Shown: piece after piece, positions 8,694 through 21,319 of the stretch
How the letters are laid out: every line of letters begins with the position of its first letter
Numbering within the stretch: the first letter of the stretch is position 1
Source: Shinella granuli
GTDB lineage: Bacteria > Pseudomonadota > Alphaproteobacteria > Rhizobiales > Rhizobiaceae
Assembly (NCBI RefSeq): GCF_004341885.1
Contig: NZ_SLVX01000005.1
Coordinates: 248,001-312,000, forward strand
DNA length: 64,000 bases
Direction: 5' to 3'
The notes under the pieces: model-generated
Told to the model about the DNA's origin: nothing
What the model saw: only the letters and a program-made list of their open reading frames with translations
The model's database searches: none
Made by a program: the position numbers and the translations under genes

Positions 8694-9656
8694 TCAAGCC
8701 GTCGATGCAAGCCGCACGCGATGGCCGGGGGCGATCTCGACCAGCGCGGAGGGCACCGGCGGCTTGAAGACATCCGGCGCCGCGCTGCCATCGGACACGA
8801 AGCGGCGCCCATCGGGCAGGGTCGCATCCGGCGCGAAAGCGGCCGCGACCGGGTTCAGCGCCGCATCCGGATCGGGAATGGCAGCGATCAGCCGGCGGGT
8901 ATAGGGATGGGTCGGCGTCTCGAAGATCTGCCGCCAGCCGCCCTCCTCCACCACCTCGCCGAAGAACATCACCAGCACCCGGTCGCTCATGTGTTCGACG
9001 ACGCTGAGGTCGTGACTGATCATGATGTAGGAGAGGCCAAGCTTTTCCTGCAGGTCGAGCAGCAGGTTGATGATCTGGGCGCGGATCGAGACGTCGAGGG
9101 CGGAGACCGGCTCGTCCAGCACGACGATCTCCGGCTCCAGGATCAGCGCGCGGGCGATGCCGATGCGCTGGCGCTGGCCGCCGGAGAACTCGTGCGGATA
9201 GCGGCGCGCCTGCTCGGGCGTCAGGCCGACATTCTTCAGCATGGCCTCGATCCGGCCCTCGATTTCCGACGCGGCGGTGATGCCGTGCAGCTTCAGCGGC
9301 GCGGCGAGCGAGGTGCGCACGCACTGGCGCGGGTTCAGCGAGGCATAGGGGTCCTGAAAGACCATCTGCACCGCCTTGGCGCGCTGCATGCGCCCCGGCG
9401 CGCCTGGCCCGGCGAGCGGCTGGCCGCGATAACGGATCGTGCCTTCCGTCGGCTCCTGGAGGCCGAGGATGGAGAGCGCCGTCGTGGACTTGCCGCAGCC
9501 CGATTCGCCGACGATCGACAGGCACTCGCCCTTGGCGAGGTCGAAGCTGATACCGTTGACGGCGTGCAGCATGCGCCGCCCCGTGCCGAACAGGCCGCCG
9601 CCGGAAATCGGGAAGCGGACGTGGAGGTCGTCCACCTGCAACAGGGGCGCTGTCAT
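8694..9656 (-). CDS. Oligopeptide/dipeptide ABC transporter ATP-binding protein (DppF/OppF type)
   Basis: 320 residues. Walker A GESGCGKST, Q-loop VFQDPYASLNPR, signature FSGGQRQRIGIARAL, Walker B EIVVLDEP and the switch histidine in MISHDLSVVEHM are intact. The C-terminal stretch after the ABC domain (PTHPYTRRLIAAIP) is the oligopeptide-family extension. The start ATG shares four bases with the stop of the preceding ATPase gene (ATGA), implying translational coupling. The frame is open far upstream but reads through the neighbour. It is the last gene of the amidohydrolase-transporter operon and pairs with the second ATPase. Confidence 0.92.
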   Translation of the reverse strand: MTAPLLQVDDLHVRFPISGGGLFGTGRRMLHAVNGISFDLAKGECLSIVGESGCGKSTTALSILGLQEPTEGTIRYRGQPLAGPGAPGRMQRAKAVQMVFQDPYASLNPRQCVRTSLAAPLKLHGITAASEIEGRIEAMLKNVGLTPEQARRYPHEFSGGQRQRIGIARALILEPEIVVLDEPVSALDVSIRAQIINLLLDLQEKLGLSYIMISHDLSVVEHMSDRVLVMFFGEVVEEGGWRQIFETPTHPYTRRLIAAIPDPDAALNPVAAAFAPDATLPDGRRFVSDGSAAPDVFKPPVPSALVEIAPGHRVRLASTA

Positions 9657-10564
9657 GGCTGGCCCCCTTCCGGCCCGCGCGGCGCGATGAAGCGGGTTTC
9701 CGTCAGCGTCGAGCGGTCGGCGATGATGCTGTCGATATCGACGAGGCGCTGGCGACCGTGCGCGCTGCGGCTGCCGAGACGCGGCAGGGCGCCGAGCAGA
9801 CCGCGCGTATAGGCGTGGCGGGGATTTTCGAAGAGCGCCCGCGTCTCGTTCTCTTCCACGAGGCAGCCGGCATACATGACGCCGACGCGCTGGCAGATGC
9901 TGGCGATGACACCGAGATCGTGGCTGATGAAGAGCACGGCCGTGCCGCGCGCGGCGCAAAGCTCCTTGATCAGCCGCAGCACCTCGGCCTGCACGGTGAC
10001 GTCGAGCGCCGTGGTCGGCTCGTCGGCGATGAGGAGATCCGGGTTGCAGGCGAGCGCCATGGCGATCATCACGCGCTGACGCAGGCCGCCGGACATCTGG
10101 TGCGGATAGTTTTTCGCACGCCGGTCGGGATTGGGCACGCGCACATTGCCCAGCGCCTCGACGGCCAGTCTTTCCGCCTCGCCCCAGCTCCTGCCCTGAT
10201 GCAGCACGAACATTTCGGCGATCTGCCGGCCGACCGTCGAGAGCGGGTTCAGCGCCGTCATCGGCTCCTGGAAGATCATGGCGATGCGGTTGCCGCGCAG
10301 GCGCCGCATCTCGCGCTTCGGCCGGGACAGCAGGTTCTGGCCCTTGAACAGGATCTCGCCACTGGTGACGGCAAGCGGTTTCTTCAGAAGCCCCATGACG
10401 GCGAGCGAGGTTATCGACTTGCCGGAACCGGATTCGCCGACGAGCCCATAGGCCTCTCCCGGCATGATCTGGAAGGTGACGTCCTTCAGAAGCGGATGGT
10501 GGACGGAGCGGCCGAGCGCGACGCCGAGGCGAAGGTTCCGGATGTCGAGAAGCGGCGCGGTCAT
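9653..10564 (-). CDS. Oligopeptide/dipeptide ABC transporter ATP-binding protein (DppD/OppD type)
   Basis: 303 residues. Walker A GESGSGKS, Q-loop IFQEPMTALNPLSTV, signature MSGGLRQRVMIAMAL, Walker B LLIADEPTTALD and switch histidine FISHDLGVIA are present. The ending PRHAYTRGLLGALPRLG is the OppD-type C-terminal extension. The start ATG overlaps the stop of the permease gene by four bases and its own stop overlaps the next ATPase start the same way, so five genes are tightly coupled. Family specificity is for di- or oligopeptides and related compounds; the neighbourhood of D-peptidases points to D-residue peptides or amides. Confidence 0.92.
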   Translation of the reverse strand: MTAPLLDIRNLRLGVALGRSVHHPLLKDVTFQIMPGEAYGLVGESGSGKSITSLAVMGLLKKPLAVTSGEILFKGQNLLSRPKREMRRLRGNRIAMIFQEPMTALNPLSTVGRQIAEMFVLHQGRSWGEAERLAVEALGNVRVPNPDRRAKNYPHQMSGGLRQRVMIAMALACNPDLLIADEPTTALDVTVQAEVLRLIKELCAARGTAVLFISHDLGVIASICQRVGVMYAGCLVEENETRALFENPRHAYTRGLLGALPRLGSRSAHGRQRLVDIDSIIADRSTLTETRFIAPRGPEGGQP

Positions 10565-11382
10565 GGCTTGCGCGTCCTCATATGCGGGTCGAGGCTGTCG
10601 CGCAGGCCATCCCCCAGAAGGTTGAAGCCGAGCACGGAGAGGAAGATGGCAAGGCCCGGGAAGATCGCCACCCAGGGCGCGAGCTGGATGAGCTGGCGCG
10701 CATCCGTCAGCATCGAGCCCCAGCTCGGGAACGGCGGCTGGATGCCGAGGCCGAGGAAGGAGAGCGCGGCCTCGGAGAGGACGGCCGAGCCCATGCCGAG
10801 CGTCGCCATGACGAGGATCGGTCCCATCATGTTGGGCAGGATCTGCGTGAACATGATGCGCAGGTCCCCGTAGCCGAGCGTCTGCGCCGCCTGCACATAG
10901 CCCTGCGATTTCAAGGAGAGCGTCGAGGAGCGGGCGATGCGGCAGGTCCAGCTCCAGTTGGTGAGGCCGAGCGCGACGAGGAGCGACGGCAGGCCGGGGC
11001 CGAGCACGGCCATGACGGCGAGCGCGAAGATCAGCGAGGGGATGGCGAGCATGACGTTGGTGAGGCCGTTGACGAGATCGTCCCACCAGCCGCCCCAATA
11101 GCCGGCGGTCATGCCGAGCGTGACGCCGATCACTGAATTGATGACCTGCGAGACGATGCCGACCGTCAGCGAGATCTGCGCGCCGTAGAGGATGCGGGTA
11201 TAGACGTCACGCCCCTGCCCGTCCGTGCCGAACCAGAAGGTGGCGTCGGGCGGAAGTTCGGAACTCATCAGGTCCGCGTCGAGCACCGGGTCGAAGGGCG
11301 CGATCCACGGCGCCAGCACGCCGGCGAGGATGACCAGCGCCGTCAGGCTGGCGCCGAGCCAGAAGTTGAAGCCGAAGCGCAT
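10561..11382 (-). CDS. Oligopeptide-type ABC transporter permease (DppC/OppC type)
   Basis: 273 residues with about six membrane segments, the FGTDGQGRDVYTRILYGAQISL DppC signature near residue 60-80 (seen in two parts) and the cytoplasmic EAA-like loop RSSTLSLKSQGYVQAAQTLGYG contacting the ATPases. The start MRFGFNFWLG at 11382 gives a normal short N terminus ahead of the first transmembrane helix; the frame is open upstream into the previous permease. It lies 5 bases after the DppB-type gene. Inner-membrane partner of that protein. Confidence 0.9.
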   Translation of the reverse strand: MRFGFNFWLGASLTALVILAGVLAPWIAPFDPVLDADLMSSELPPDATFWFGTDGQGRDVYTRILYGAQISLTVGIVSQVINSVIGVTLGMTAGYWGGWWDDLVNGLTNVMLAIPSLIFALAVMAVLGPGLPSLLVALGLTNWSWTCRIARSSTLSLKSQGYVQAAQTLGYGDLRIMFTQILPNMMGPILVMATLGMGSAVLSEAALSFLGLGIQPPFPSWGSMLTDARQLIQLAPWVAIFPGLAIFLSVLGFNLLGDGLRDSLDPHMRTRKP

Positions 11383-11387
11383 TCCCG

Positions 11388-12323
11388 TCACTCCTGCTTG
11401 ATGCGCGGATCGATCGCGGCATAGATCAGATCGACGGCCGTGTTGATGACGAGGAACCACAGCACGATGACGAGGATCGTACCCTGCACCACGGGAATGT
11501 CGCGGATGGCGACGCTGTCGACCAGCAGCGAGCCGATGCCGGGCCAGGCGAACAGCTTCTCGATGACGACGGCCTGGCCGATCAGCGAGCCGAATTGCAG
11601 GCCGACCGTGGTGACGATCAGCACCAGCGCGTTGCGCGCCACATGCCAGCGCACCACCTTCGCCTCGCTCATGCCCTTGGAATGGGCGGTGCGAATGAAA
11701 TCGGCATTGAGCACGTCGAGCACGCCCGCCCGCGTGGTGCGTGCGAGAAGCGCCAGCGGCGTGACGCCGAGCGTGACGGCGGGCAGGATGAGATTGCGGA
11801 ACGAGCCGTCGCCGTAGCCGAAGCTGGGCAGCCAGTTCAGTTGCAGGGCGAAGAGATACATCATCAACAGGCCCAGCCAGAACTGCGGCATGGACAGGCC
11901 CGAGACCGCACCGATCATCGTCACCGTATCGAGCACCGAGCCGGGCCGTAGCGCCGCGAGGAAGCCGAGCGGCACGCCGACGACGAGGGCGAAGACCATG
12001 GCGGCGATGGCGAGTTGCAGCGAGGCCCCCATGCGGTCGTTGATGAGGTCGATCACCGGCTGGCGGGTGCGGAAACTGGTGCCGAGATCGAACTGCGCGA
12101 GGTCCGTGACATAGGCCACGAAGCGTTCTAGCAGCGGCTTGTTGAGGCCGAACTCCTCGTTGAGGCGGGCGATCATCTGCGGATCGGCGGCGCGCTTGCC
12201 ATCGGCAAAGAGGCTGGCGGCGAAGGTGCCGGGCACGACGGAGAAGATGACGAAGATCAGCAGCGCCACCACGACGACCGTCGGAATGATCTGGAAGATG
12301 CGGCGCAGGGTGAAACGAAGCAT
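11388..12323 (-). CDS. Oligopeptide-type ABC transporter permease (DppB/OppB type)
   Basis: 311 residues with an N-terminal membrane helix (LRRIFQIIPTVVVVALLIFV) and five more segments. The DppB signatures are a periplasmic region with PLLERFVAYVTDLAQFDLGTS and the EAA loop ARTTRAGVLDVLNADFIRTAHSKG. It is the first of the two permease genes after the binding protein gene, the standard order for this family. The start is the first Met of the frame, at the right distance from the membrane helix. Confidence 0.92.
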   Translation of the reverse strand: MLRFTLRRIFQIIPTVVVVALLIFVIFSVVPGTFAASLFADGKRAADPQMIARLNEEFGLNKPLLERFVAYVTDLAQFDLGTSFRTRQPVIDLINDRMGASLQLAIAAMVFALVVGVPLGFLAALRPGSVLDTVTMIGAVSGLSMPQFWLGLLMMYLFALQLNWLPSFGYGDGSFRNLILPAVTLGVTPLALLARTTRAGVLDVLNADFIRTAHSKGMSEAKVVRWHVARNALVLIVTTVGLQFGSLIGQAVVIEKLFAWPGIGSLLVDSVAIRDIPVVQGTILVIVLWFLVINTAVDLIYAAIDPRIKQE

Positions 12324-12407
12324 GAGCGGTTCCGTGTTGGCCGCCCGGACGGGCGCGACAATCGATGCGGGGGCGGCTTTGACGCCGCCCCCGAACCCCT
12401 CAAGGCT

Positions 12408-14000
12408 TTACTTGCGCGAGTCCGGCGCGGTCTCGTCGATCCAGATCTCGTCATAGGGCTGGACCGCCAGTTCCGTCGCGTTCGGAACGAGGCCGTGGAT
12501 CCACGGCTGGTAGGCCATGACCGCCTTGTTGTAGTTGAAGAACCAGACGGGCGCGTCGTCCTGCACGATGTTGTTGGCCTGGCGCAGGAGGTCGTTCTGC
12601 TTGGCGGGGTTACGCTCCTGCTGGGCCGTGTCGTAGAGCTTGTCGAATTCTGGGCTCGCATAGCTCGTATAGTTGCAGGCCGATTGCGCCGTCTTGGAAT
12701 GGTAGCAGCGCAGCGCGTTCAGCGGGTCGGGGCCGGAAAGGTTCGACCAGATGAAGGCCTGGAAGTTGTTGGTCGTTACCGCCTCGCCGAGCGCCGAGCT
12801 TTCCACCGGCTTCGGCTTCACGGTAATGCCGACCTTCTGCAGCATCGGCAGGATGGCCTCGACGATCGGCACGCCCCAGCTTTCGTTCGGGCTCGCCGTC
12901 ACCTCGAATTCGAAGCCGTCGGCATAGCCGGCTTCCGCCAGCAGGGCCTTGGCCTTTTCCGGATCGAAGGCATAGGCCGGCTTGTCCTTGTCGAAGGCCG
13001 GCGAGGAGATCGGCAGCCAGCCGGAGGCCGGATAGGCCTTGTTCTTGACGAGGCGTTCGATGATCAGCGGCGCGTTGATGGCATGGTTGATCGCCTGGCG
13101 CACCCGCTTGTCCTTGAAGGGCTCGAAAGCCGGGTTGAAGCCGATATTGCGGGTATAGACCTCGGCGACTTCCAGCAGGTGATCCTTCAGCGCGTCCTCG
13201 CCCTGATAGGCCTGGTACTGTGTCGGGCCGAGGATGGAGACGTCGATCTCCTTGTTGCGGAAGGCGACGTCGCGCGCGGCGTCCTCGGCCATCAGCACGA
13301 TGTTGATGCGGTCGAGATAGGGCTTGCCCTCCTCGTAATACTTGTCGAACTTCTCGACGACGACCTGCGAGCCCGGCACATGCTCCTTGAAGGTGAAGGC
13401 GCCGAGGCCGACGGGGGACTTGCCGAAGCTCGATTCATCCTCGACATTCGACGGATAGATGACCGTCGTGTTCTGCATCAGCGGGAAGCCGGGATTGATC
13501 GGGCCGGTATAGGTGATCTCCAGCGTGTTGTCGTCGATCTTCCTGAGGCCGGAAATCTCCTCGGCCTTGCCGGCTATATAGTCGTCCGCGCCCTTGATGT
13601 TGGCGATGAAGCTTGCGCCCGGGAAAGCGTTCTTCGGATTGGCGATGCGCTTGTAGCTGTAGATGAAGTCATCCGCCGTCAGCGGCTTGCCGTTGTGGAA
13701 GACGGCGTTCTTGCGCAGGCGATAGGTATGGACCGTGCCGTCCTCGGAAACATCCTCGGAATCCGCCAGTTCCAGCACCGGCTTGTTCTGGATCGAGTCC
13801 CAGCTATAGAGCGCGCGATGGATCGCCTGGGTGATGAACTCTTCCTGCGTGTTGGGGCTCGCCTGCACGTCGAGCGTGGCGAAGCTCGATCCGTAGGGGG
13901 CGGTGAAGACGAGCGTTCCGCCCTGGCGTTCACCCGCGGCGAGCGCCCCGGAAGCCACGCCGAGGCTGAGCATTGCGGCCAGTGTCAGTGTCTTGATCAT
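12408..14000 (-). CDS. Periplasmic peptide-type solute-binding protein (SBP family 5)
   Basis: 530 residues. Residues 1-21 (MIKTLTLAAMLSLGVASGALA) form a Sec signal peptide. The mature part has the family 5 pattern: TLDVQASPNTQEEFITQAIHRAL near the N terminus, YRLRKNAVFHNGKPLTADDFIYSYKR, and KDKRVRQAINHAINAPLIIERL in the middle. This family captures di- and oligopeptides, and sometimes sugars or amines. It lies 56 bp after the amidohydrolase gene and 84 bp before the permease genes, so it belongs to the operon starting at 15682. Ligand unknown; D-residue peptides or amides are suggested only by neighbours. Confidence 0.92.
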   Translation of the reverse strand: MIKTLTLAAMLSLGVASGALAAGERQGGTLVFTAPYGSSFATLDVQASPNTQEEFITQAIHRALYSWDSIQNKPVLELADSEDVSEDGTVHTYRLRKNAVFHNGKPLTADDFIYSYKRIANPKNAFPGASFIANIKGADDYIAGKAEEISGLRKIDDNTLEITYTGPINPGFPLMQNTTVIYPSNVEDESSFGKSPVGLGAFTFKEHVPGSQVVVEKFDKYYEEGKPYLDRINIVLMAEDAARDVAFRNKEIDVSILGPTQYQAYQGEDALKDHLLEVAEVYTRNIGFNPAFEPFKDKRVRQAINHAINAPLIIERLVKNKAYPASGWLPISSPAFDKDKPAYAFDPEKAKALLAEAGYADGFEFEVTASPNESWGVPIVEAILPMLQKVGITVKPKPVESSALGEAVTTNNFQAFIWSNLSGPDPLNALRCYHSKTAQSACNYTSYASPEFDKLYDTAQQERNPAKQNDLLRQANNIVQDDAPVWFFNYNKAVMAYQPWIHGLVPNATELAVQPYDEIWIDETAPDSRK

Positions 14001-14056
14001 GTCGTTCTCCCTCTCGTGCCGTTTTCGGCATCGTTTCAGTTCAGTCCGGCAGGCGT

Positions 14057-15682
14057 TTACCGCGCATCATGCACGACACGGCCTGCAAGCAGGGTCAGCA
14101 GGCAGCGCGTGCCTGAGAGAATGGTTTGCGGCTCCGCCGTAAGAAGATCGTTGTCGAAGACCGCGATATCGGCCCATTGGCCGGGCACGAGCCGCCCCTT
14201 CACGCCCTCGGCCTTCTGGGAATAGGCGCCGTATTCCGTATAGGCCTGCAGCGCCTCTTCCGGGCTCAGCCGTTCGGACGCATCCATCACCGTGCCCTTG
14301 CCGGTCTGGCGCGTGATCATCGCGTAGAGATTCGGGAAGGGATCGGGCGAGCAGACCGGCGAGTCCGAACCGGTCGAGGGGTTGAGGCCCATGCGCATCC
14401 AGGTGCCGATCGGGTAGGACGGCTTGCCGCGTGCCTCCCCGAGCACGGAAATATAGCTGTCGCCGAAATCGTGGATGAAGGCCATCTGCGGCGCGGGCAG
14501 GATGCCGGCGGCCTGCATGCGCGCATGCTGTCCGGGCGTGGAAAAGCCGCAATGCTCGATGCGGTGGCGGCGGTCGGGATCCGGGTTGGCGGCGAGCGCC
14601 TTCTCGTAAGCCGTGATGAGCTGTTCGATCGCCCCGTCGCCGATGGCATGGCAGACCATCTGGTAGCCACGGTCATGGCAATCCTTGACGACCGCCTCGA
14701 CCGTCTCGTCCGGCAGCATCTGCACGCCGATATTGTCGGGTTCGCCCTCATAGGGCTTCGTCATCCAGGCGGTGCGCCCGCCGGCCGAACCGTCGAGGAA
14801 GACCTTCACGCCGCCGACGCGCAGCATGTCGTCGCCGGCACCCGACAGCAGCCCTGCCCGCCAAGCGTCCTCGACGATGGACACGCCGGGATCGCCGAGC
14901 AGCGTCAGCCAGACGCGCACCGGCAGGCGGCCGGACAGTTTTGCCATCTCATAGGCCTGGATCTCGGAGAACCCGGCGACATGGCCGACCGCCGCATCCA
15001 TGCAGCTCGTAATACCGAAGGAAAGCAGATGCCGCCCGGCCCGCTCGATGCCGTCGATCAGCTCCTCGGTGGTCGCCGGCGGCATGACGGCCTTGACGAG
15101 GTTCTGGGCGTTCTCCGCGAGAAAACCGTTGAGCTTCCCGTCGGTGACGCCGATCACGCCGCCATCGGGCACCGGCGTCGCCTCGCTGATGCCGGCAAGT
15201 TCCAGCGCGCGGGAATTGGCGATGGAGACATGGCCGCAGGCGCGCGTCAGCAGGACGGGGTGGTCGGGCGCAGCGCGGTCGAGATCGTCCCGCGTCGGAT
15301 GCCGGCCGGTGTCGAGCTTGACCTGGTCGTAGCCGCGGGCGCGCACCCAGCCGCCCTTCGGCGTCGTAGCCGCGCGCTCGGCAATGCCCTTCATCAGGGC
15401 AGCCAGCGTCGGCGCGGCTGCGGGCGTCGCATCGACGAAGCCCATGGCGATACCGGTCGCGATGAGATGCAGGTGGTTGTCGATGAGGCCTGGCGTCGCA
15501 AAACGCCCCGCAAGATCGATCACCTCGGTCGCCGGCCCCTTCAGGCTCAGCATGTCGGCCGTGCTGCCGGTTGCCAGAACCTTGCCCTGCCAGACGGCCA
15601 GGGCCTCGCTGATGCCCTCCTCCCGGCCCCGCCAGATGCGGCCATTGGTCAGGATAAGATCGGCTTCAATTCCGAATGCCAT
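14057..15682 (-). CDS. Amidohydrolase family 3 protein (YtcJ/N-substituted formamide deformylase-like)
   Basis: 541 residues, the usual size of the metal-dependent amidohydrolase family 3. Metal-site motifs visible are DNHLHL (after PGLI), the KVFLDGSAGGRTAWM strand with the bridging lysine, VCHAIGDGAIEQLI, HRIEHCGF and TGSDSPVC near the C terminus. Members hydrolyse N-substituted formamides and other amides. It is the first gene of the operon with the peptide-type importer and lies divergent from a LysR regulator at 15866. The 32-bp shared element at 15762-15793 is 80-111 bp upstream of its start. It may act on the imported compound. Substrate unknown. Confidence 0.85.
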   Translation of the reverse strand: MAFGIEADLILTNGRIWRGREEGISEALAVWQGKVLATGSTADMLSLKGPATEVIDLAGRFATPGLIDNHLHLIATGIAMGFVDATPAAAPTLAALMKGIAERAATTPKGGWVRARGYDQVKLDTGRHPTRDDLDRAAPDHPVLLTRACGHVSIANSRALELAGISEATPVPDGGVIGVTDGKLNGFLAENAQNLVKAVMPPATTEELIDGIERAGRHLLSFGITSCMDAAVGHVAGFSEIQAYEMAKLSGRLPVRVWLTLLGDPGVSIVEDAWRAGLLSGAGDDMLRVGGVKVFLDGSAGGRTAWMTKPYEGEPDNIGVQMLPDETVEAVVKDCHDRGYQMVCHAIGDGAIEQLITAYEKALAANPDPDRRHRIEHCGFSTPGQHARMQAAGILPAPQMAFIHDFGDSYISVLGEARGKPSYPIGTWMRMGLNPSTGSDSPVCSPDPFPNLYAMITRQTGKGTVMDASERLSPEEALQAYTEYGAYSQKAEGVKGRLVPGQWADIAVFDNDLLTAEPQTILSGTRCLLTLLAGRVVHDAR

Positions 15683-15761
15683 GCACGGCTCCCCCTGTCG
15701 GCACCGGCCAACCGGCGCCCTTTTTCTCCACCCGCAACGTGAAAGGTTGCGGCGGGCTTGG

Positions 15762-15793
15762 CCAATTCGGTTTTGGCACGATCCTATGCGAAA
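15762..15793 (-). promoter_or_regulatory. Shared 32-bp promoter element, copy 1 (LysR target candidate)
   Basis: The 32 bases are 26/32 identical, without gaps and in the same orientation, to 19694-19725. Conserved blocks on the plus strand are CCAATTC, TTT, GGCA, ATCCTATGC and AAA. This copy lies in the divergent gap between the amidohydrolase operon and the lysR gene, 80-111 bp before the amidohydrolase start. Confidence 0.75.
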
Positions 15794-15865
15794 TCGGCAT
15801 ACCCATTTCGATTGAATGACTTATGATCGCCTTCGCCGCGCAGAAGGCACCGGAGGGACGCGCAA

Positions 15866-16837
15866 ATGGAGATCAAGTGGCTGGAGGATTTCGTGACGCT
15901 GGCCGACACGTCCAGCTTTTCGCGCGCCGCCGAATTGCGCAATGTCACCCAGCCGGCTTTCAGCCGCCGGATCAAGCAGCTGGAAGGCTGGCTCGGCGCC
16001 ACGCTGATCAGCCGCGCCACCATGCCGGCCGAATTGACGCCCGCAGGGCGCAATTTCCTGCCCGTCGCGCAGGAGGCGATCCGCACCTTCTATGCGGCGC
16101 GGGAAGCACTGCGCCCCGCGCATGAGCCGGGCCTCATCCGCTTTGCCGCCCTGCACACGCTGACGGTCACCTTCTTCCCGCGCTGGCTAAAGACACTGGA
16201 AGGCGCGGGCGGCGCCTTCAGCACCTCGCTCATTCCCGACCGCGGCGGCATCGAGGCCAATCTCGACGCCCTTGTCGGCGACGAGGCGGATTTCTTCCTC
16301 ACCTATGCCCATCCGGAAGTGCCGTTTCATCTCGACCGCGGCCAATTCGCCTCGCTGACGGTCGGGCGCGACCGGCTGATGCCGCTGGTATCGGCGGAGA
16401 TCGCGGTTTCGGGCCAGTTGCAGCCCGGGCGCAATCTTCTCGACCGCGCCGTCGCGCAGCCGCGGCTTGCCATTCCCTATCTCAGCTACGGCTTCAATTC
16501 GTTCTTCGGCGTCGCGCTGTCGCGCCTCCTCCTGCGCCGCCCGCCCTTTCGCCGGCGCACGACCCATGAAAACACCATCAGCGCCGGGCTGATGAACATG
16601 GCGGTGACGGGCGCGGGCGTCTGCTGGCTGCCGGAGAGCCTTGCGCGCGAAGAGATGGAGGCGGGGCGCCTCGTGCCGGCCTCCGTGGACGAGGGCTGGA
16701 ACCTCAACCTCGAAGTCCGCCTCTACCGCCATGCGGCGAGCCGGACCGGCAAGGTCGAGGATTTCTGGCGCACGGCGCGGCAGCTTCTCGAACGCGCACC
16801 GCCTGGTATCAGACTTTCAGGAAGAGCAGCGCCCTGA
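15866..16837 (+). CDS. LysR-family transcriptional regulator
   Basis: 323 residues. The N-terminal winged helix-turn-helix is clear (LEDFVTLADTSSFSRAAELRNVTQPAFSRRIKQLEGWLG, residues 5-43 in pieces), followed by a periplasmic-binding-like effector domain of about 220 residues. The start has GGAGGGACGCG before it. It is divergent from the amidohydrolase-ABC operon, the classic arrangement for a LysR regulator of its neighbour. The promoter of the DAT-peptidase operon carries the same 32-bp element, so that operon is a likely second target. Its 3' end overlaps the convergent M55 peptidase gene by 29 bp. Inducer unknown. Confidence 0.9.
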   Translation: MEIKWLEDFVTLADTSSFSRAAELRNVTQPAFSRRIKQLEGWLGATLISRATMPAELTPAGRNFLPVAQEAIRTFYAAREALRPAHEPGLIRFAALHTLTVTFFPRWLKTLEGAGGAFSTSLIPDRGGIEANLDALVGDEADFFLTYAHPEVPFHLDRGQFASLTVGRDRLMPLVSAEIAVSGQLQPGRNLLDRAVAQPRLAIPYLSYGFNSFFGVALSRLLLRRPPFRRRTTHENTISAGLMNMAVTGAGVCWLPESLAREEMEAGRLVPASVDEGWNLNLEVRLYRHAASRTGKVEDFWRTARQLLERAPPGIRLSGRAAP

Positions 16838-17609
16838 GGATCTCGGAGAAATCCCTGTGCTCGAAGGCGACGGCGCGGGGACCATGCGCCTTCGCACCGG
16901 GATACCATGCAGCCCGGTAGGCCTCGGTCGGCGTGCTGAACTCGATCACCACCTCGTAGCGATCCGCCTTTGCGGGCAGCGCCTGCGCGAAGTCGCCCGA
17001 CAGCGCCGCCGCCACGCCTTCGCGGATGAGACGGCGGGACCAGGCGGGCGAGATGGATGTCGAGGCGCGGCCCCTGCCATCCAGCGTTTCCACCGTCGCA
17101 AGGCCGGGCACCATGGCCCGCGCCTCCGCGCAGATGCCCACGTCCCCGGCGAGGAAGACCGACGGCACGCCATAGCCGGCCGCGCAGAGCGCGTTGAAGG
17201 TGAACTCGGACGCCACCTCGCCATTCAGCAGGAGCCGCGAGATGCGCAGGTTGGAGGTGTGCGCGAGCGGATTGCCCTCCGTGCCGGCCTTGGAATGGTA
17301 GCCCGTATAGATCGCGGCGGCAAAGCCGGCATCGATGCCGAACATCATCTCGTCCGGATGGCCGGACCAGCCGCGCACGATGCGGGCATAATCGGGCAGA
17401 CGGTCGAGGATGAGATTGCGGCCGCTGTCATGGGCATCCTTGATCACCACTTCCGTGGCGCCGGCGGCGCGCGCGCCCTCGCAGGCGGCGACCACCTCGC
17501 CCGTCATCAGCGCGCGGAACTCGGCCCAGTCCGGGTGGGTGCGCTCGGCCTCGTTCCAATGGGCGATGCCGGCCGTGCCTTCGATGTCGGCGGAGATGAA
17601 GACTTTCAT
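16809..17609 (-). CDS. dppA: Zinc-dependent D-aminopeptidase, DppA family (peptidase M55)
   Basis: 266 residues, close to Bacillus DppA. The metal ligands fall at the family positions: D8 and E10 in FISADIEG, H60 in IKDAHDSG, the GYH histidine at 105, and a glutamate (E131 or E135) in LLLNGEVASEF. Family members form a decameric ring and release N-terminal D-residues, for example from D-Ala-D-Ala. The start MKVFISADIEG at 17609 is fixed by alignment to the family; its ATG overlaps the preceding stop by four bases (ATGA), so it is coupled to the P1 peptidase gene. Last gene of the DAT operon. Role in D-peptide use is supported by three D-amino acid enzymes nearby. Confidence 0.88.
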   Translation of the reverse strand: MKVFISADIEGTAGIAHWNEAERTHPDWAEFRALMTGEVVAACEGARAAGATEVVIKDAHDSGRNLILDRLPDYARIVRGWSGHPDEMMFGIDAGFAAAIYTGYHSKAGTEGNPLAHTSNLRISRLLLNGEVASEFTFNALCAAGYGVPSVFLAGDVGICAEARAMVPGLATVETLDGRGRASTSISPAWSRRLIREGVAAALSGDFAQALPAKADRYEVVIEFSTPTEAYRAAWYPGAKAHGPRAVAFEHRDFSEILRALLFLKV

Positions 17610-18643
17610 GGGATGGGGCTCTCCTTCAGCCAGTCCGTGAGGGCGGGATAGATGCGGCCGCTGCGCGCCGGCGTGGCGGGGGCCGCGCAGAGCCCGTTCA
17701 GCACCGCCTCCTGTGTGGTCTCGGCGGCCGCGCGGAAGGCGATGTCGATATAGCTGTCGGACAGCCGCTGCTGCGTGGCGACGGGCGCAGGCGGATCGTG
17801 CTCGACCGGATCGGCCGTTGTGAAACAAAGGACGACGTCGCCGCTGCCATGGCCCCAGAAGGCGCCGAGCCGGGCAAGCCCCGCACCGCCGCGCCGGGCG
17901 ACGCGCTGCAATTGCCGGTCGCCCAGCGGCAGGTCCGTCGCCATGACGACGATGACCGAACCGCGCTCAGGGCTTGCCGGCACCCGCGGGTCGGGCCGGC
18001 GGCCGTCCGGCAGGACGAGATCGCCCGCCGCGCCGAAATTGGCGAGCACCAGCGTGCCGAGCGTGAAGTCGCGCTTGCCGATGCGCATCAGCCGCGAGGC
18101 GGTGCCGATGCCGGCCTTGAAGCCGAAGGCGGTCATGCCGGATCCGGCACCGACCGCGCCCTGCTCGACCGGTCCCGGATGCGCGGCATCGAGGGCCGCC
18201 TCGGCATCCGCGGGCGTCACGCCGAGCGCCTGGATATCGTTGATGCTGCCGTCGTTGCACTCGAAGACCAGCGCATTGACCGTCGAGGTCTTCCGCCCGA
18301 TCGCCGGATTGGCGGCGATGGCGCGGCGGATCAGGGCCTCGGTGCAGGCGGCGACGCCGAACGTGTTGGTGAGGAGGATGGGCGTCTCGATCGTGCCGAG
18401 CTCGGCCACCTGCATCAGCCCGGCCGACTTGCCGAAGCCGTTGACGACTTCGACCGCCGCCCGCGGCTTGACGCGGAAGAGATCGCCGGGATGCGGCACG
18501 ATGGCCGTCACGCCGGTGAAGAGGCCTTCGCCGCGCAGCGAGCGATGGCCGACGGCAACCCCGGCAACATCGGTAATGGCATTGCCCGGCCCCGGCTCCA
18601 GCCGCCCCTCAGGGATCAGGCCCAGTTCACGCGCCGTCTTCAT
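17606..18643 (-). CDS. P1 family peptidase (DmpA/BapA-type L-aminopeptidase/D-esterase)
   Basis: 345 residues from the chosen start MKTARELGLIPEG, where the family normally begins; GGAAGGGGCGGAC precedes it. Family motifs: NAITDVAGVAVGHRSL at about 21-36, VVNGFGKSAGL at 66-76, and the self-cleavage site ERGSVIVVMATD with G228-S229. In DmpA of Ochrobactrum anthropi a Gly-Ser bond is cut and the new N-terminal Ser is the nucleophile, giving alpha and beta chains. DmpA releases L-residues from peptides and acts on D-Ala esters and amides; BapA acts on beta-peptides. The 35 codons of open frame upstream fall inside a dispersed repeat and are not counted. Operon partner of DAT and DppA. Confidence 0.87.
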   Translation of the reverse strand: MKTARELGLIPEGRLEPGPGNAITDVAGVAVGHRSLRGEGLFTGVTAIVPHPGDLFRVKPRAAVEVVNGFGKSAGLMQVAELGTIETPILLTNTFGVAACTEALIRRAIAANPAIGRKTSTVNALVFECNDGSINDIQALGVTPADAEAALDAAHPGPVEQGAVGAGSGMTAFGFKAGIGTASRLMRIGKRDFTLGTLVLANFGAAGDLVLPDGRRPDPRVPASPERGSVIVVMATDLPLGDRQLQRVARRGGAGLARLGAFWGHGSGDVVLCFTTADPVEHDPPAPVATQQRLSDSYIDIAFRAAAETTQEAVLNGLCAAPATPARSGRIYPALTDWLKESPIP

Positions 18644-18699
18644 GTCCGCCCCTTCCGGCATTCCAATCCTTGAAAAGATGACCTTTTCCGAGCGAGCCG

Positions 18700-18782
18700 C
18701 CTCGCCGGAAATGCTCTGGATTCTTGCTTTTACCGCATTATCCGACACCGAAGCGACTTCGCTTCGGCTGGAAATGCTCTAG
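18700..18782. repeat. Rhizobial-type dispersed intergenic repeat with hairpin
   Basis: Two copies of GGAAATGCTCT (about 18711-18721 and 18770-18780) flank a hairpin, CCGAAGCGA-CT-TCGCTTCGG at 18748-18767. On the minus strand the unit begins TAGAGCATTTCCAG, a widespread intergenic sequence in Rhizobiales. Here it supplies the TAG stop of the aminotransferase gene and fills the gap before the P1 peptidase gene, where the hairpin could tune downstream expression. Exact outer limits are uncertain. Confidence 0.6.
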
Positions 18783-19630
18783 ACCGAAACGCCGGCCGCT
18801 TCCAGATAGAGCGCCTGCAGCGCCCGCGTCCGAGGCCCGGGTTTTCCATCGCCGATCACCCGGTCGCCGATGCGCACGACGGGCGTGACCAGGCTGGAGG
18901 CGGAGGTCTGGAAGGCCTCTGCTGCGCCCTGCGCCTCCTCGGGCGTGAAGGCGCGCTCCTCGATGTGCAGGCCATCGGCGGCGCAGAGCCGCGCAAGGGC
19001 GCGCTGGGTACAGCCCGGCAGCGTGGCCTGCGAGGCGGCGCGGGTGAGGATGCGGCCGTCAGCGGTGATGAGGTGTGCGGTCGAGGAGGCCCCCTCCGTC
19101 ACCAGCCCGCCCTCCACCAGCCAGACATCGTCGAAACCGCGGGCACGCGCCGCCTGCTTGGCCATCACCTGGCCAAGCAGCATGGCGGTCTTGATGTCGC
19201 GCCGCTGCCAGCGCGGATCGGAGGCAAGGTCGACCGCAATGCCGTTCTGCTGCGCCTTGGTGCCGGTGAGGGACTTGGCCTGCGTGAAGCCGACGAGCCG
19301 CGGCGCCAGCGTGGCGGGATAGAAGAAGTCGCGGTCCGCCTCGCCGCGCGAGACCTGCAGATAGACGGTGCCGTCCTGCAGGGCGTTGCGGGCGATCAGT
19401 TCCGTCTGGACGGCCACGATTTCCGGCCGGTCGAGCGCCAGGGGGATGTCCAGCTCCTTCAGCGAACGTTCGAGCCGGGCGAGATGCAGGTCGTTGTCGA
19501 TCATCCGCCCGGCGATCACCGCCGTCACCTCGTAGACGGCATCGCCGAACAGGAAGCCGCGATCGAACAACCCGATCCTGGCTTCCTCCTCCGGCACGAA
19601 TTGACCGTGGACGTAGACGATCCTGCCCAT
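18779..19630 (-). CDS. dat: D-amino-acid transaminase (PLP class IV)
   Basis: 283 residues, matching D-amino acid aminotransferases (about 280). Features: LFDRGFLFGDAVYEV at 21-35, the typical N-terminal turn; R-G-E at 95-97 in QVSRGEADRDFFYP; the PLP lysine K147 in RRDIKTAMLLG; and VEGGLVTEGASSTAHLI, which holds the PLP-contacting glutamate. The start at 19630 has AAGGGGAACAG before it; the frame is open 31 codons further but into promoter sequence. It converts D-amino acids to 2-oxo acids using an acceptor such as 2-oxoglutarate. First gene of an operon followed by two D-peptide hydrolases, so it would process released D-residues. Branched-chain or aminodeoxychorismate enzymes share the fold but fit the motifs less well. 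Confidence 0.87.
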   Translation of the reverse strand: MGRIVYVHGQFVPEEEARIGLFDRGFLFGDAVYEVTAVIAGRMIDNDLHLARLERSLKELDIPLALDRPEIVAVQTELIARNALQDGTVYLQVSRGEADRDFFYPATLAPRLVGFTQAKSLTGTKAQQNGIAVDLASDPRWQRRDIKTAMLLGQVMAKQAARARGFDDVWLVEGGLVTEGASSTAHLITADGRILTRAASQATLPGCTQRALARLCAADGLHIEERAFTPEEAQGAAEAFQTSASSLVTPVVRIGDRVIGDGKPGPRTRALQALYLEAAGVSV

Positions 19631-19693
19631 CTGTTCCCCTTGCTGCGCCTGTGGCTCCTCGCGCCGAACATTGGTGCGACTTGCCGCGGCTGA

Positions 19694-19725
19694 CCAATTC
19701 AATTTGGGCAGAATCCTATGCAAAA
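19694..19725 (-). promoter_or_regulatory. Shared 32-bp promoter element, copy 2
   Basis: Ungapped match to 15762-15793 with 26 of 32 bases identical and same orientation relative to the downstream operon. It ends 64 bp before the D-amino acid transaminase start (copy 1 ends 80 bp before its gene), a similar geometry that supports a common activator binding site overlapping or just above the -35 region. Confidence 0.75.
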
Positions 19726-19753
19726 AACGCCTGAGGCTTTGTTTTGCAATGAT

Positions 19754-21319
19754 TTAGGTGTTGTCATCGCACCGGGCATAGCGGATCCCACGGGCCAGCC
19801 AGCAGCCGAGCGTCAGGTCGGTGATATGTCCGGCCGCATCGCGCTCGGCCACCAGCGTCCAGTCCCCCGGCGCCGGCGCGTCCATCGAGCGGCGCGTCAC
19901 GACGATCCAGATGTCGGGCCCGGCCGGCTGGACGATCTCGGGCCGGCCCGTGCCGAGGAAACCCTCGGCCCAGAGATAGGTCCCGCCGTCGCGGCATTCG
20001 ATGACGATATCCGCCTCCAGCTCGGCGGAGCGGTAGCGGCCCGCAAGGCGCTTATCGCCGGCCGCCGGCACCGGAGCGACCGGCGCCAGCCTCTCGGCGT
20101 AATTTTCCTGCGCGCGCTGCATCAGGAGGTCCTCGCCCGCGCGGGCAACCGTGACGGACGAGGAGGCAAGGCCGCCGTCCGCCGTCTGCGAAAGGCTCTC
20201 CGGCGACGTGCCGAAGCGCAGGGTCGCCGCGTCGAGGCCGGGCTCCAGCCGGGCGAGAAGACCGGTCTCGCGGCTCATCCACTGCCCGCCCCAGCGCTCG
20301 CCGAGCGGCTGCGGGGCGGGGTGCGGCAGGCCGAGCGCGGTGCGCAGCAGCCGGTGTGCCGCGCCATGCGCATCGCCGTGATGGTTGAACATCACCACGA
20401 CCGAGAGCCGCGCTTCGGCCGAATAGGCCCGGTAGGCCCGGAAGCCGCGCAGGGCGCCGCTATGGCCAGTGAAGGCGACATCGCCGACGCGCGAATGCTG
20501 CAGGCCGAAACCATAGGCCGCGGCCGTACCGTCGCGGAAGGTCTGCGGCACCGCGATCTTCCGGTAGAGACTGTCCGGATCCCCGCGCGTGGCATCGATC
20601 CAGCGTTCATAGGCGATCATGTCGTCGAGCGAGGCGGAGATGCCGGCATCGCCCCGCCAGTAGATGCCGTTGTCCGCCGGAAGGTAGCCGGTGGCGTCGT
20701 TGCCCTCGTAGCCGACCACACCGTCTTCCGGCTGGCGGGTATCGGCGGTCAGCACCGCGCCGGCCATGCCGGCCGGCTCCCAGATGTGCCGCGCATAGAG
20801 CGCCTCCAGCGTTTCGGCGGAGAACGCCTCCAGAAGATCGGAGACGAGGCGGAAATTGCCGTTGCTGTAGGAATAGCGCGTGCCGGGCGCAAAGTGCCCG
20901 TTGCGCATGCGCATGAACACCGATGCCGCGTCGTCGCGCGAAAAGGCCTGCTCGGCCCTGGCGCCGTGCAGCACGGTCAGCGCCCAGTAGTCGCGCAGGC
21001 CCGACTGGTTGTTGCAGAGATCGCGCACGCGCGGCAGCGGGCCTTCGAAATTCGGCAGATGCGCGGCAAGCCGGCCATCGAGTGCTTCCGGCGCACCACA
21101 GGCGGCGAGCATGGCCGCGCAGGTGAACTGCTTGGAGACCGAGCAGATCGGCAGCCGCGTCCCCGCCGTCATGGCCCGACGCGTGTCGAGATCGGAGAAA
21201 CCCCAGGCACGAAGGGCGACGACCTGCCCTTCGCTGACCACGCCGGCGACGCCGCCCGGCCCCGGAAACCGCAAGGCAAGCGCATCCATCTCCGCTTCGA
21301 GCCGCTTGTCGTCGATCAT
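19754..21319 (-). CDS. dap: D-stereospecific aminopeptidase, DAP-like (serine peptidase family S12)
   Basis: 521 residues; Ochrobactrum anthropi DAP has 520. The penicillin-recognising motifs are S60-x-x-K63 (CSVSK), Y151-S-N (YSYSN) and H286-S-G, each within about two residues of the known DAP positions. After the catalytic domain come about 180 residues that fit the two extra beta-barrel domains of DAP. The enzyme frees N-terminal D-Ala or similar D-residues from amides and peptides. The start MIDDKRLEAEMDAL agrees with DAP; the frame runs on upstream through the cytochrome gene in another register. No signal peptide, so it is cytoplasmic, as expected if substrates are imported. General esterase EstB-like activity is the alternative. 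Confidence 0.85.
   Translation of the reverse strand: MIDDKRLEAEMDALALRFPGPGGVAGVVSEGQVVALRAWGFSDLDTRRAMTAGTRLPICSVSKQFTCAAMLAACGAPEALDGRLAAHLPNFEGPLPRVRDLCNNQSGLRDYWALTVLHGARAEQAFSRDDAASVFMRMRNGHFAPGTRYSYSNGNFRLVSDLLEAFSAETLEALYARHIWEPAGMAGAVLTADTRQPEDGVVGYEGNDATGYLPADNGIYWRGDAGISASLDDMIAYERWIDATRGDPDSLYRKIAVPQTFRDGTAAAYGFGLQHSRVGDVAFTGHSGALRGFRAYRAYSAEARLSVVVMFNHHGDAHGAAHRLLRTALGLPHPAPQPLGERWGGQWMSRETGLLARLEPGLDAATLRFGTSPESLSQTADGGLASSSVTVARAGEDLLMQRAQENYAERLAPVAPVPAAGDKRLAGRYRSAELEADIVIECRDGGTYLWAEGFLGTGRPEIVQPAGPDIWIVVTRRSMDAPAPGDWTLVAERDAAGHITDLTLGCWLARGIRYARCDDNT

Follow-up and report, generated by a model that had tools for sequence, protein, structure and literature searches.

A putative LysR-controlled regulon joining a peptide importer to an S58-M55 peptidase pair and a D-amino acid transaminase in Shinella granuli

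A 64,000-nucleotide stretch of Shinella granuli DNA (contig NZ_SLVX01000005.1; the whole stretch is called the window below) carries a cluster of genes for a peptide-type importer, an amidohydrolase, a LysR-family regulator, a class IV D-amino acid transaminase (DAAT) and three hydrolases: an S58 peptidase resembling DmpA, an M55 aminopeptidase resembling DppA, and an S12 D-aminopeptidase (DAP). We think it rather probable that the cluster houses a salvage regulon under LysR control, serving peptides with D-residues or with iso- or beta-links, for which ordinary peptidases are poorly suited. What is new here is a shared putative operator, found before the importer operon and before DAAT. LysR probably controls the importer operon and the DAAT-S58-M55 genes through these predicted sites, and the two units most likely form one local regulon, since a matrix trained on the amidohydrolase side finds the DAAT-side site and the core pattern is exact at these two places only. 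A sequence-only reading of the same DNA had proposed a dedicated route for D-residue peptides, from import through three kinds of cleavage to transamination. The genes for these steps do recur, and the shared predicted operator ties the importer operon to DAAT-S58-M55; DAP, however, lies outside the operator, and the cluster is not one uniform pathway.

Putative operators before the importer operon and DAAT

The LysR gene (15866..16837, plus strand; PF00126 and PF03466) lies between two minus-strand operons; it diverges from the one that encodes the amidohydrolase and importer, and converges on M55. The gap between LysR and the amidohydrolase holds a conserved bipartite element (operator 1, 15756..15801, minus strand), which consists of TATGC-N7-GCATA plus GCCAAAACCGAATTGGCCA and whose strict pattern occurs in 32 of 35 divergent-pair loci, the window included. 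A 46-column matrix was trained solely on amidohydrolase-side sites, of which 24 of the 32 were distinct and kept; a site was counted when it scored at least 14 bits and lay no more than 300 bp before a gene. Across the window, the matrix scores 78.2 at operator 1 and 22.7 at a second site before DAAT and downstream of DAP (operator 2, 19688..19733, minus strand), which retains only part of the TATGC/GCATA dyad. The next non-overlapping match scores -11.5, and 40 single-base shuffles of the window reach no more than -4.2. In the whole genome (6.59 Mb), a 31-base core pattern matches exactly only at the two cluster sites; allowing 3 mismatches adds four further sites, and the same pattern read backwards, used as a control, has no match. 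A conserved dyad, predicted to be an operator, thus stands before both operons, as expected of a LysR regulon.

Sites were also counted among related loci. Scores of at least 14 were obtained upstream of 34 of 44 DAAT genes, before one of 58 S58 genes (in Gemmobacter, at a locus without DAAT), before two of 109 M55 genes (both in Ensifer), and before none of 42 substrate-binding protein (SBP) genes. In this census an S58 or M55 gene entered the count only if no other query matched it better than the window protein, and the counts include duplicates, some genomes being present both as G loci and as named loci; the latter are the best 80 of at least 529 relatives. A near relative of the window LysR is found in 30 of these 80 loci. 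In the two Ensifer loci, L099 and L177, the site before M55 follows S12-aminotransferase genes.

S58 and M55 as a recurrent pair

M55 (16809..17609, minus strand) matches PF04951 at 280 bits, over the cut-off, and its alignment with 1hi9, which carries the name DppA in the structure match, retains columns D8 and E10 (D-x-E), H60, H105, H117 and E135; we take D8, E10, H60, H105 and E135 to be metal ligands. S58, an N-terminal nucleophile (Ntn) peptidase (17606..18643, minus strand; PF03576, 342 bits), retains the Gly-Ser self-cleavage site when aligned with 2drh and 1b65, reading ERGSVIVV for the ERGSIIVV of 1b65, and scores higher against 2drh than against 1b65.

The two genes overlap by 4 bp in the window, and S58 and M55 form a recurrent pair. 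In a sample of 398 Pseudomonadota genomes, M55 occurs in 22, with 21 over the cut-off; the 20 loci fetched hold 21 M55 matches, all counted as the phylum census, and two matches under the threshold (G218 and G485:C3) were left out. S58 directly adjoins M55, within 600 bp, for 14 of these 21 matches, and an importer permease lies within 9 kb of 18. In a family sample of 151 genomes, in which M55 occurs in 14, S58 in 139 and DAP_B in 13, S58 adjoins M55 for 7 of 14 fetched M55 matches, the window not counted. L204, whose S58 is split into two BLAST pieces, was entered as lacking S58. Most family genomes have 1 to 4 S58 genes, and the chance of such adjacency is estimated near 0.1%. Of 65 adjacent pairs on the same strand (the window among them, mostly alphaproteobacterial, with the same duplicates as above), 50 have an overlap of exactly 4 bp between the S58 stop and the M55 start; one of the remaining pairs has M55 first, and the others either overlap by 1 bp or leave a gap of at most 107 bp. 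DAP lies within 6 kb of 4 of 82 M55 matches in the named set. This neighbourhood census had no score floor for DAP, and its one 'S58+DAP' entry in the phylum sample, L203, is a weak 72-bit S12 match, not DAP.

Other elements of the cluster recur as well. LysR, S58, DAAT, the amidohydrolase and a window-type importer occur together in 15 of the 80 named loci, three of them with DAP, and a further 8 combine LysR, DAAT and S58 with a polar-amino-acid-type importer instead: the importer type is swapped around the same core. The grouping of genes goes beyond chance, because S58 beside M55, DAAT near S58 and the importer block all recur in related genomes.

A transaminase with a non-canonical motif

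DAAT (18779..19630, minus strand; PF01063) scores 335.3 bits against the subfamily NF005209 (cut-off 320) and stays below the canonical Bacillus-type family TIGR01121 (203 against 277 bits), whose R-x-H motif it lacks. It shares class IV fold and carboxylate-trap Arg with the Bacillus D-AAT (1daa), but reads R-D-F where the latter has R-A-H, with Phe for His; both Arg and His presumably serve in the carboxylate trap of the Bacillus enzyme. The motif position is Phe in 44 of 46 aligned rows, window included, Tyr in one and His in one (Azospirillum). A second DAAT-like gene of the same genome, on contig C12, has R-D-H and scores 246 bits, still below the TIGR01121 cut-off. Since the motif column is nearly always Phe and the other DAAT-like gene has R-D-H, the DAAT of the cluster is apparently a paralogue dedicated to it.

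The gap between DAAT and S58 measures 21-40 bp in 18 of 30 loci, in line with a single transcript, and 135 bp in the window. There, positions 18644-18778 hold an intergenic repeat with AGAGCATTTCC present twice and a hairpin-like stretch. The repeat is present in this gap in only 2 of 30 other loci measured, which is why we read it as probably a later insertion.

DAP as a loose companion

DAP (19754..21319, minus strand) has the beta-lactamase domain (PF00144) and DAP_B (PF07930) of S12 D-aminopeptidases and scores 690 bits against NF009622 (cut-off 443). Matched to 1ei5 at 500 bits, it retains S-x-x-K, Y-x-N and H-x-G, motifs to which we assign the presumed catalytic roles. Its link to the other genes is looser. 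None of 33 DAP genes has an upstream site at threshold, and the best score upstream of the window DAP is -41.5; a weak site of 6.8 upstream of the L076 DAP was left uncounted, since the scan of 3.27 Mb of loci also gave sites of 7.7-9.7 that have no explanation. Wherever a DAP-linked locus has a site (ten loci: the window, L088, L089, L090, L107, L168 and L222-L225, some being the same genome twice), the operator falls between DAP and the next gene; no site was found in the DAP-linked loci L221 and L226/L169. Among 21 Shinella genomes, 13 have M55, 13 have DAP and 11 have both; judged from coordinates, no more than 3 kb separates DAP from M55 in 7 of these 11, and in 4 the two genes are apart. 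DAPs linked to M55 are at least 63% identical to the window DAP. Unlinked ones reach 80% in L235, where an amidohydrolase stands beside, 60% in L174, and 43-52% elsewhere. A peptide-type permease lies within 8 kb in 4 of 13 other family-sample DAP loci.

A single pathway with DAP as a regulated member was accordingly rejected: DAP is outside the operator. That it acts in the same pathway and is co-induced seems doubtful to us, with the operator position, the 33 genes without an upstream site and the four Shinella genomes with DAP elsewhere all speaking against it. In its favour, Shinella, Rhizobium sp. Root1334 and Gemmobacter have a DAP of one subclade next to the cluster; DAPs of this subclade also accompany an M55 that lacks an S58 partner on plasmid XES5 and, in L235, the amidohydrolase in a stretch lacking M55. 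DAP is best described as a recurrent but loose companion, a lineage-specific neighbour outside the predicted operator-defined regulon.

Importer and amidohydrolase

The importer is encoded on the minus strand by an OppF/DppF-type ATPase (8694..9656; kept as atpF in relatives), an OppD/DppD-type ATPase (9653..10564), permease C (10561..11382; PF00528, with Opp4C as top NCBIfam match at 283 bits, below its cut-off), permease B (11388..12323; PF00528 and PF19300) and a peptide-type SBP_bac_5 binding protein (12408..14000; PF00496, 305 bits). Both ATPases match PF00005 and PF08352 in their longest open reading frame (ORF); the starts of the ATPases and of permease C were set by the lengths annotated in Shinella sp. 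HZN7. The best solved chains for the binding protein include several named peptide or dipeptide binding proteins. By eye, this protein has a signal-like N-terminus and M55, S58, DAAT, DAP and the amidohydrolase have none; for this reason import likely precedes hydrolysis.

The amidohydrolase (14057..15682, minus strand; PF07969, 441 bits) belongs to an uncharacterised branch of Amidohydro_3. Its AF2 model has a pLDDT of 92.7, and its nearest solved structures, by sequence and by fold, are the uncharacterised 3icj and 3igh. A role as D-aminoacylase was rejected: no solved D-aminoacylase is among its 9 sequence matches (E 0.001), and none is named among the 50 fold matches shown of 1326, the presence of a solved one in the libraries being unchecked.

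Function of the cluster and alternative explanations

In the salvage scheme that we favour, the binding protein and importer would take up short peptides, from which cytoplasmic S58 and M55 would in turn strip N-terminal residues of differing stereochemistry or linkage. DAAT would convert the freed D-amino acids into 2-oxo acids and D-glutamate, and the amidohydrolase would perhaps remove an N-acyl or similar block. LysR would sense the imported substrate and act at two operators, one before each operon. DAP would be an accessory D-aminopeptidase, probably expressed separately, whose gene adjoins the regulon in part of the Shinella genomes and in a single Rhizobium and a single Gemmobacter. 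The M55, DAAT and DAP families argue for D-residues, and the specificity of S58 appears ambiguous between D-residue peptides and beta-peptides. To speak of three D-peptide hydrolases, as the sequence-only reading did, goes too far: a passage of PMC4456602, citing Heck et al. 2006, has DmpA cleaving alpha-peptides more slowly than beta-peptides, and an excerpt of PMC9235088 has it degrading carnosine. Judged from the families present, the common denominator would be peptides with non-canonical stereochemistry or linkage.

Several points weigh against this salvage reading. S58 enzymes include beta-peptidases, and M55 reaches 140.8 bits against the DppA equivalog NF058634, short of the cut-off of 430. 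M55 stands without S58 in 45 of the 80 named loci, some of them short contigs. Of 13 same-strand S58-M55 pairs from the phylum sample, only 4 overlap by 4 bp; the tight coupling is therefore mainly alphaproteobacterial. The distances of M55 and S58 correlate with an r of 0.95 (47 of 66 loci kept after dropping near-identical ones, which were removed only here and in the operator training set), a value for which plain co-inheritance accounts. On the regulatory side, 10 of 44 DAAT genes fall short of the operator threshold, four of them scoring 5.4-6.5, and operator function is read from conservation. Finally, the genomes are related, so that all counts represent non-independent events.

Two other readings of the substrate have to be weighed. 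The cluster might scavenge murein peptides as an alphaproteobacterial counterpart of the Bacillus subtilis dpp/ykf locus, stem peptides (L-Ala, gamma-D-Glu, meso-diaminopimelate, D-Ala) being imported, S58 releasing L residues, M55 releasing D residues and DAAT using D-Ala. An M55 gene and a peptide importer do stand together as in B. subtilis, where ykfA-D lie next to dppB-E according to part of PMC2954226, and a YcjG-type epimerase is found near M55 on a Klebsiella plasmid and for 5 of the 21 phylum matches. We nevertheless regard this explanation as somewhat unlikely: a domain scan of 19 of the ORFs at 3.6-27 kb of the window found no epimerase, LD-carboxypeptidase or NlpC/P60 domain, DUF1611 is absent from the Shinella granuli genome, and among the structure matches to the SBP a murein-peptide-binding protein (3o9p, 105 bits) ranks only lower down. 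Alternatively, the salvaged peptides might be iso-linked, beta- or aged ones (isoaspartyl, D-aspartyl, beta-alanyl), with S58 as a beta-peptidyl aminopeptidase, which would suit the preference of DmpA given above. It would also suit the isoaspartyl-peptidase-like gene within 9 kb of 12 of the 21 phylum M55 matches, mostly in the arrangement isoaspartyl peptidase-importer-S58-M55. The window ORFs scanned include no isoaspartyl peptidase, and DAAT and DAP belong to families indicative of D-amino acids, which leaves this substrate unlikely here.

Detoxification of D-residue peptide antibiotics, in place of nutrition, could draw on the plasmid location in relatives and on the presence of several hydrolases from different families. 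We consider it highly improbable: the scanned ORFs contain no exporter or target-protection gene, the importer would carry the toxin inward, and the core is widespread and linked to transamination. Beyond the window, we put forward more tentatively that S58-M55 may be the core of a widespread, unnamed Pseudomonadota salvage system for D-, iso- and beta-linked peptides with varied importers and end enzymes (isoaspartyl peptidase, epimerase, DAAT, DAP), which in Shinella and relatives would form a LysR regulon complete in itself and equipped with a non-canonical DAAT. Disposal of D-glutamate through a DUF1611 enzyme was rejected for the Shinella granuli genome, which has 0 matches; the link of DUF1611 to DgcN/DgcA D-glutamate disposal is our assumption, and a literature search for it found nothing.

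Relation to known systems

The sequence-only reading knew of no named pathway with this set, yet the B. subtilis dpp/ykf locus, the nearest named one, is close in logic: both unite M55 and a peptide ABC importer in one locus, with cytoplasmic breakdown. We take B. subtilis dppA to be the M55 D-aminopeptidase of that locus. Unlike it, the window has S58, DAAT, LysR and Amidohydro_3, and none of the 19 ORFs scanned is a YkfA/B/C-type gene. Loci of other Pseudomonadota in which an isoaspartyl peptidase and a GsiABCD-type importer accompany S58 and M55 share the S58-M55 pair beside a peptide importer; they differ by fused ATPase halves, by the isoaspartyl peptidase and by a 4-bp overlap that only some of them have, and LysR, Amidohydro_3 and DAAT are on the window side. 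We know of no pathway name for them. DmpA (1b65) and DAP (1ei5), both presumably from Ochrobactrum anthropi, are near full-length homologues of the window S58 and DAP, with catalytic motifs retained; to our knowledge they are not described as one locus in that species. What S58 enzymes of the DmpA/BapA type and many M55 enzymes do in nature is, as far as we know, unclear. A literature search for a pathway joining D-aminopeptidase, DmpA, DppA or S58/M55 with DAAT and an ABC transporter found none, and the part of PMC6456654 consulted describes no such pathway. A recurring pair with importer, transaminase and dedicated regulator offers a way to the substrate, through identification of the LysR inducer. 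If the salvage reading is true, soil bacteria would possess a recycling route for D- and iso-peptides that stem from cell walls, from aged proteins or from antibiotics.

Variant loci and flanking genes

Pfam and NCBIfam matches confirm the genes and positions named by the sequence-only reading, on the minus strand; the LysR gene and the two operators come in addition. The M55 protein is 99% identical to those of Shinella sp. SUS2 and Shinella sp. HZN7, and in close relatives the cluster is on megaplasmids: the 620-kb plasmid pShin-01 of HZN7 carries all of it in unchanged order. The flanks look unrelated to the cluster: the domain scan shows a multicopper oxidase on the upstream side and, on the downstream side, a sigma-54 regulator, an ADH and a flavin monooxygenase; the HZN7 annotation places a cytochrome c gene directly upstream of DAP.

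Several architectures among the 80 named loci suggest that the logic of peptidase, M55, pyridoxal phosphate enzyme and importer was seemingly assembled in more than one way. An S12 enzyme other than DAP, without S58 or window-type partners, accompanies M55 in 20 loci, arranged where inspected as SBP-permeases-S12-Aminotran_1_2-M55; L099 and L131 have parts of both sets, and 19 loci, some of them short contigs, have none of the window partners. Overall, S58 is present in 35 and DAAT in 26. In L177, L067, L070 and L218, M55 stands beside an S12 serine hydrolase and an Aminotran_1_2-like enzyme with an importer of their own and no S58.

A different setting was seen for a second DAP of the Shinella granuli genome, on contig C57 (L078), which lies near a proline-iminopeptidase-like S33 gene and an ABC importer. 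The same module occurs in L175, L236, L239 and L241, in several Rhizobiaceae, and the DAP on pShin-11 of HZN7 likewise adjoins a proline-iminopeptidase-like gene and an ABC importer. At L235:10469-12095, Amidohydro_3 appears as two overlapping ORFs beside a window-type DAP, with no M55 in the stretch.

Plasmid records with an M55 match include 20 from Klebsiella and 12 from Pantoea. On a Klebsiella pneumoniae plasmid (L172), S58-M55 is found with a glutathione-type importer, a YcjG-type epimerase and a DUF1611 gene. On an Azospirillum plasmid (L173:18576-20789), an alanine-racemase-fold gene with a D-serine-dehydratase-like domain, RidA and a gene annotated as D-aminoacylase lie near DAAT-importer-S58-M55.

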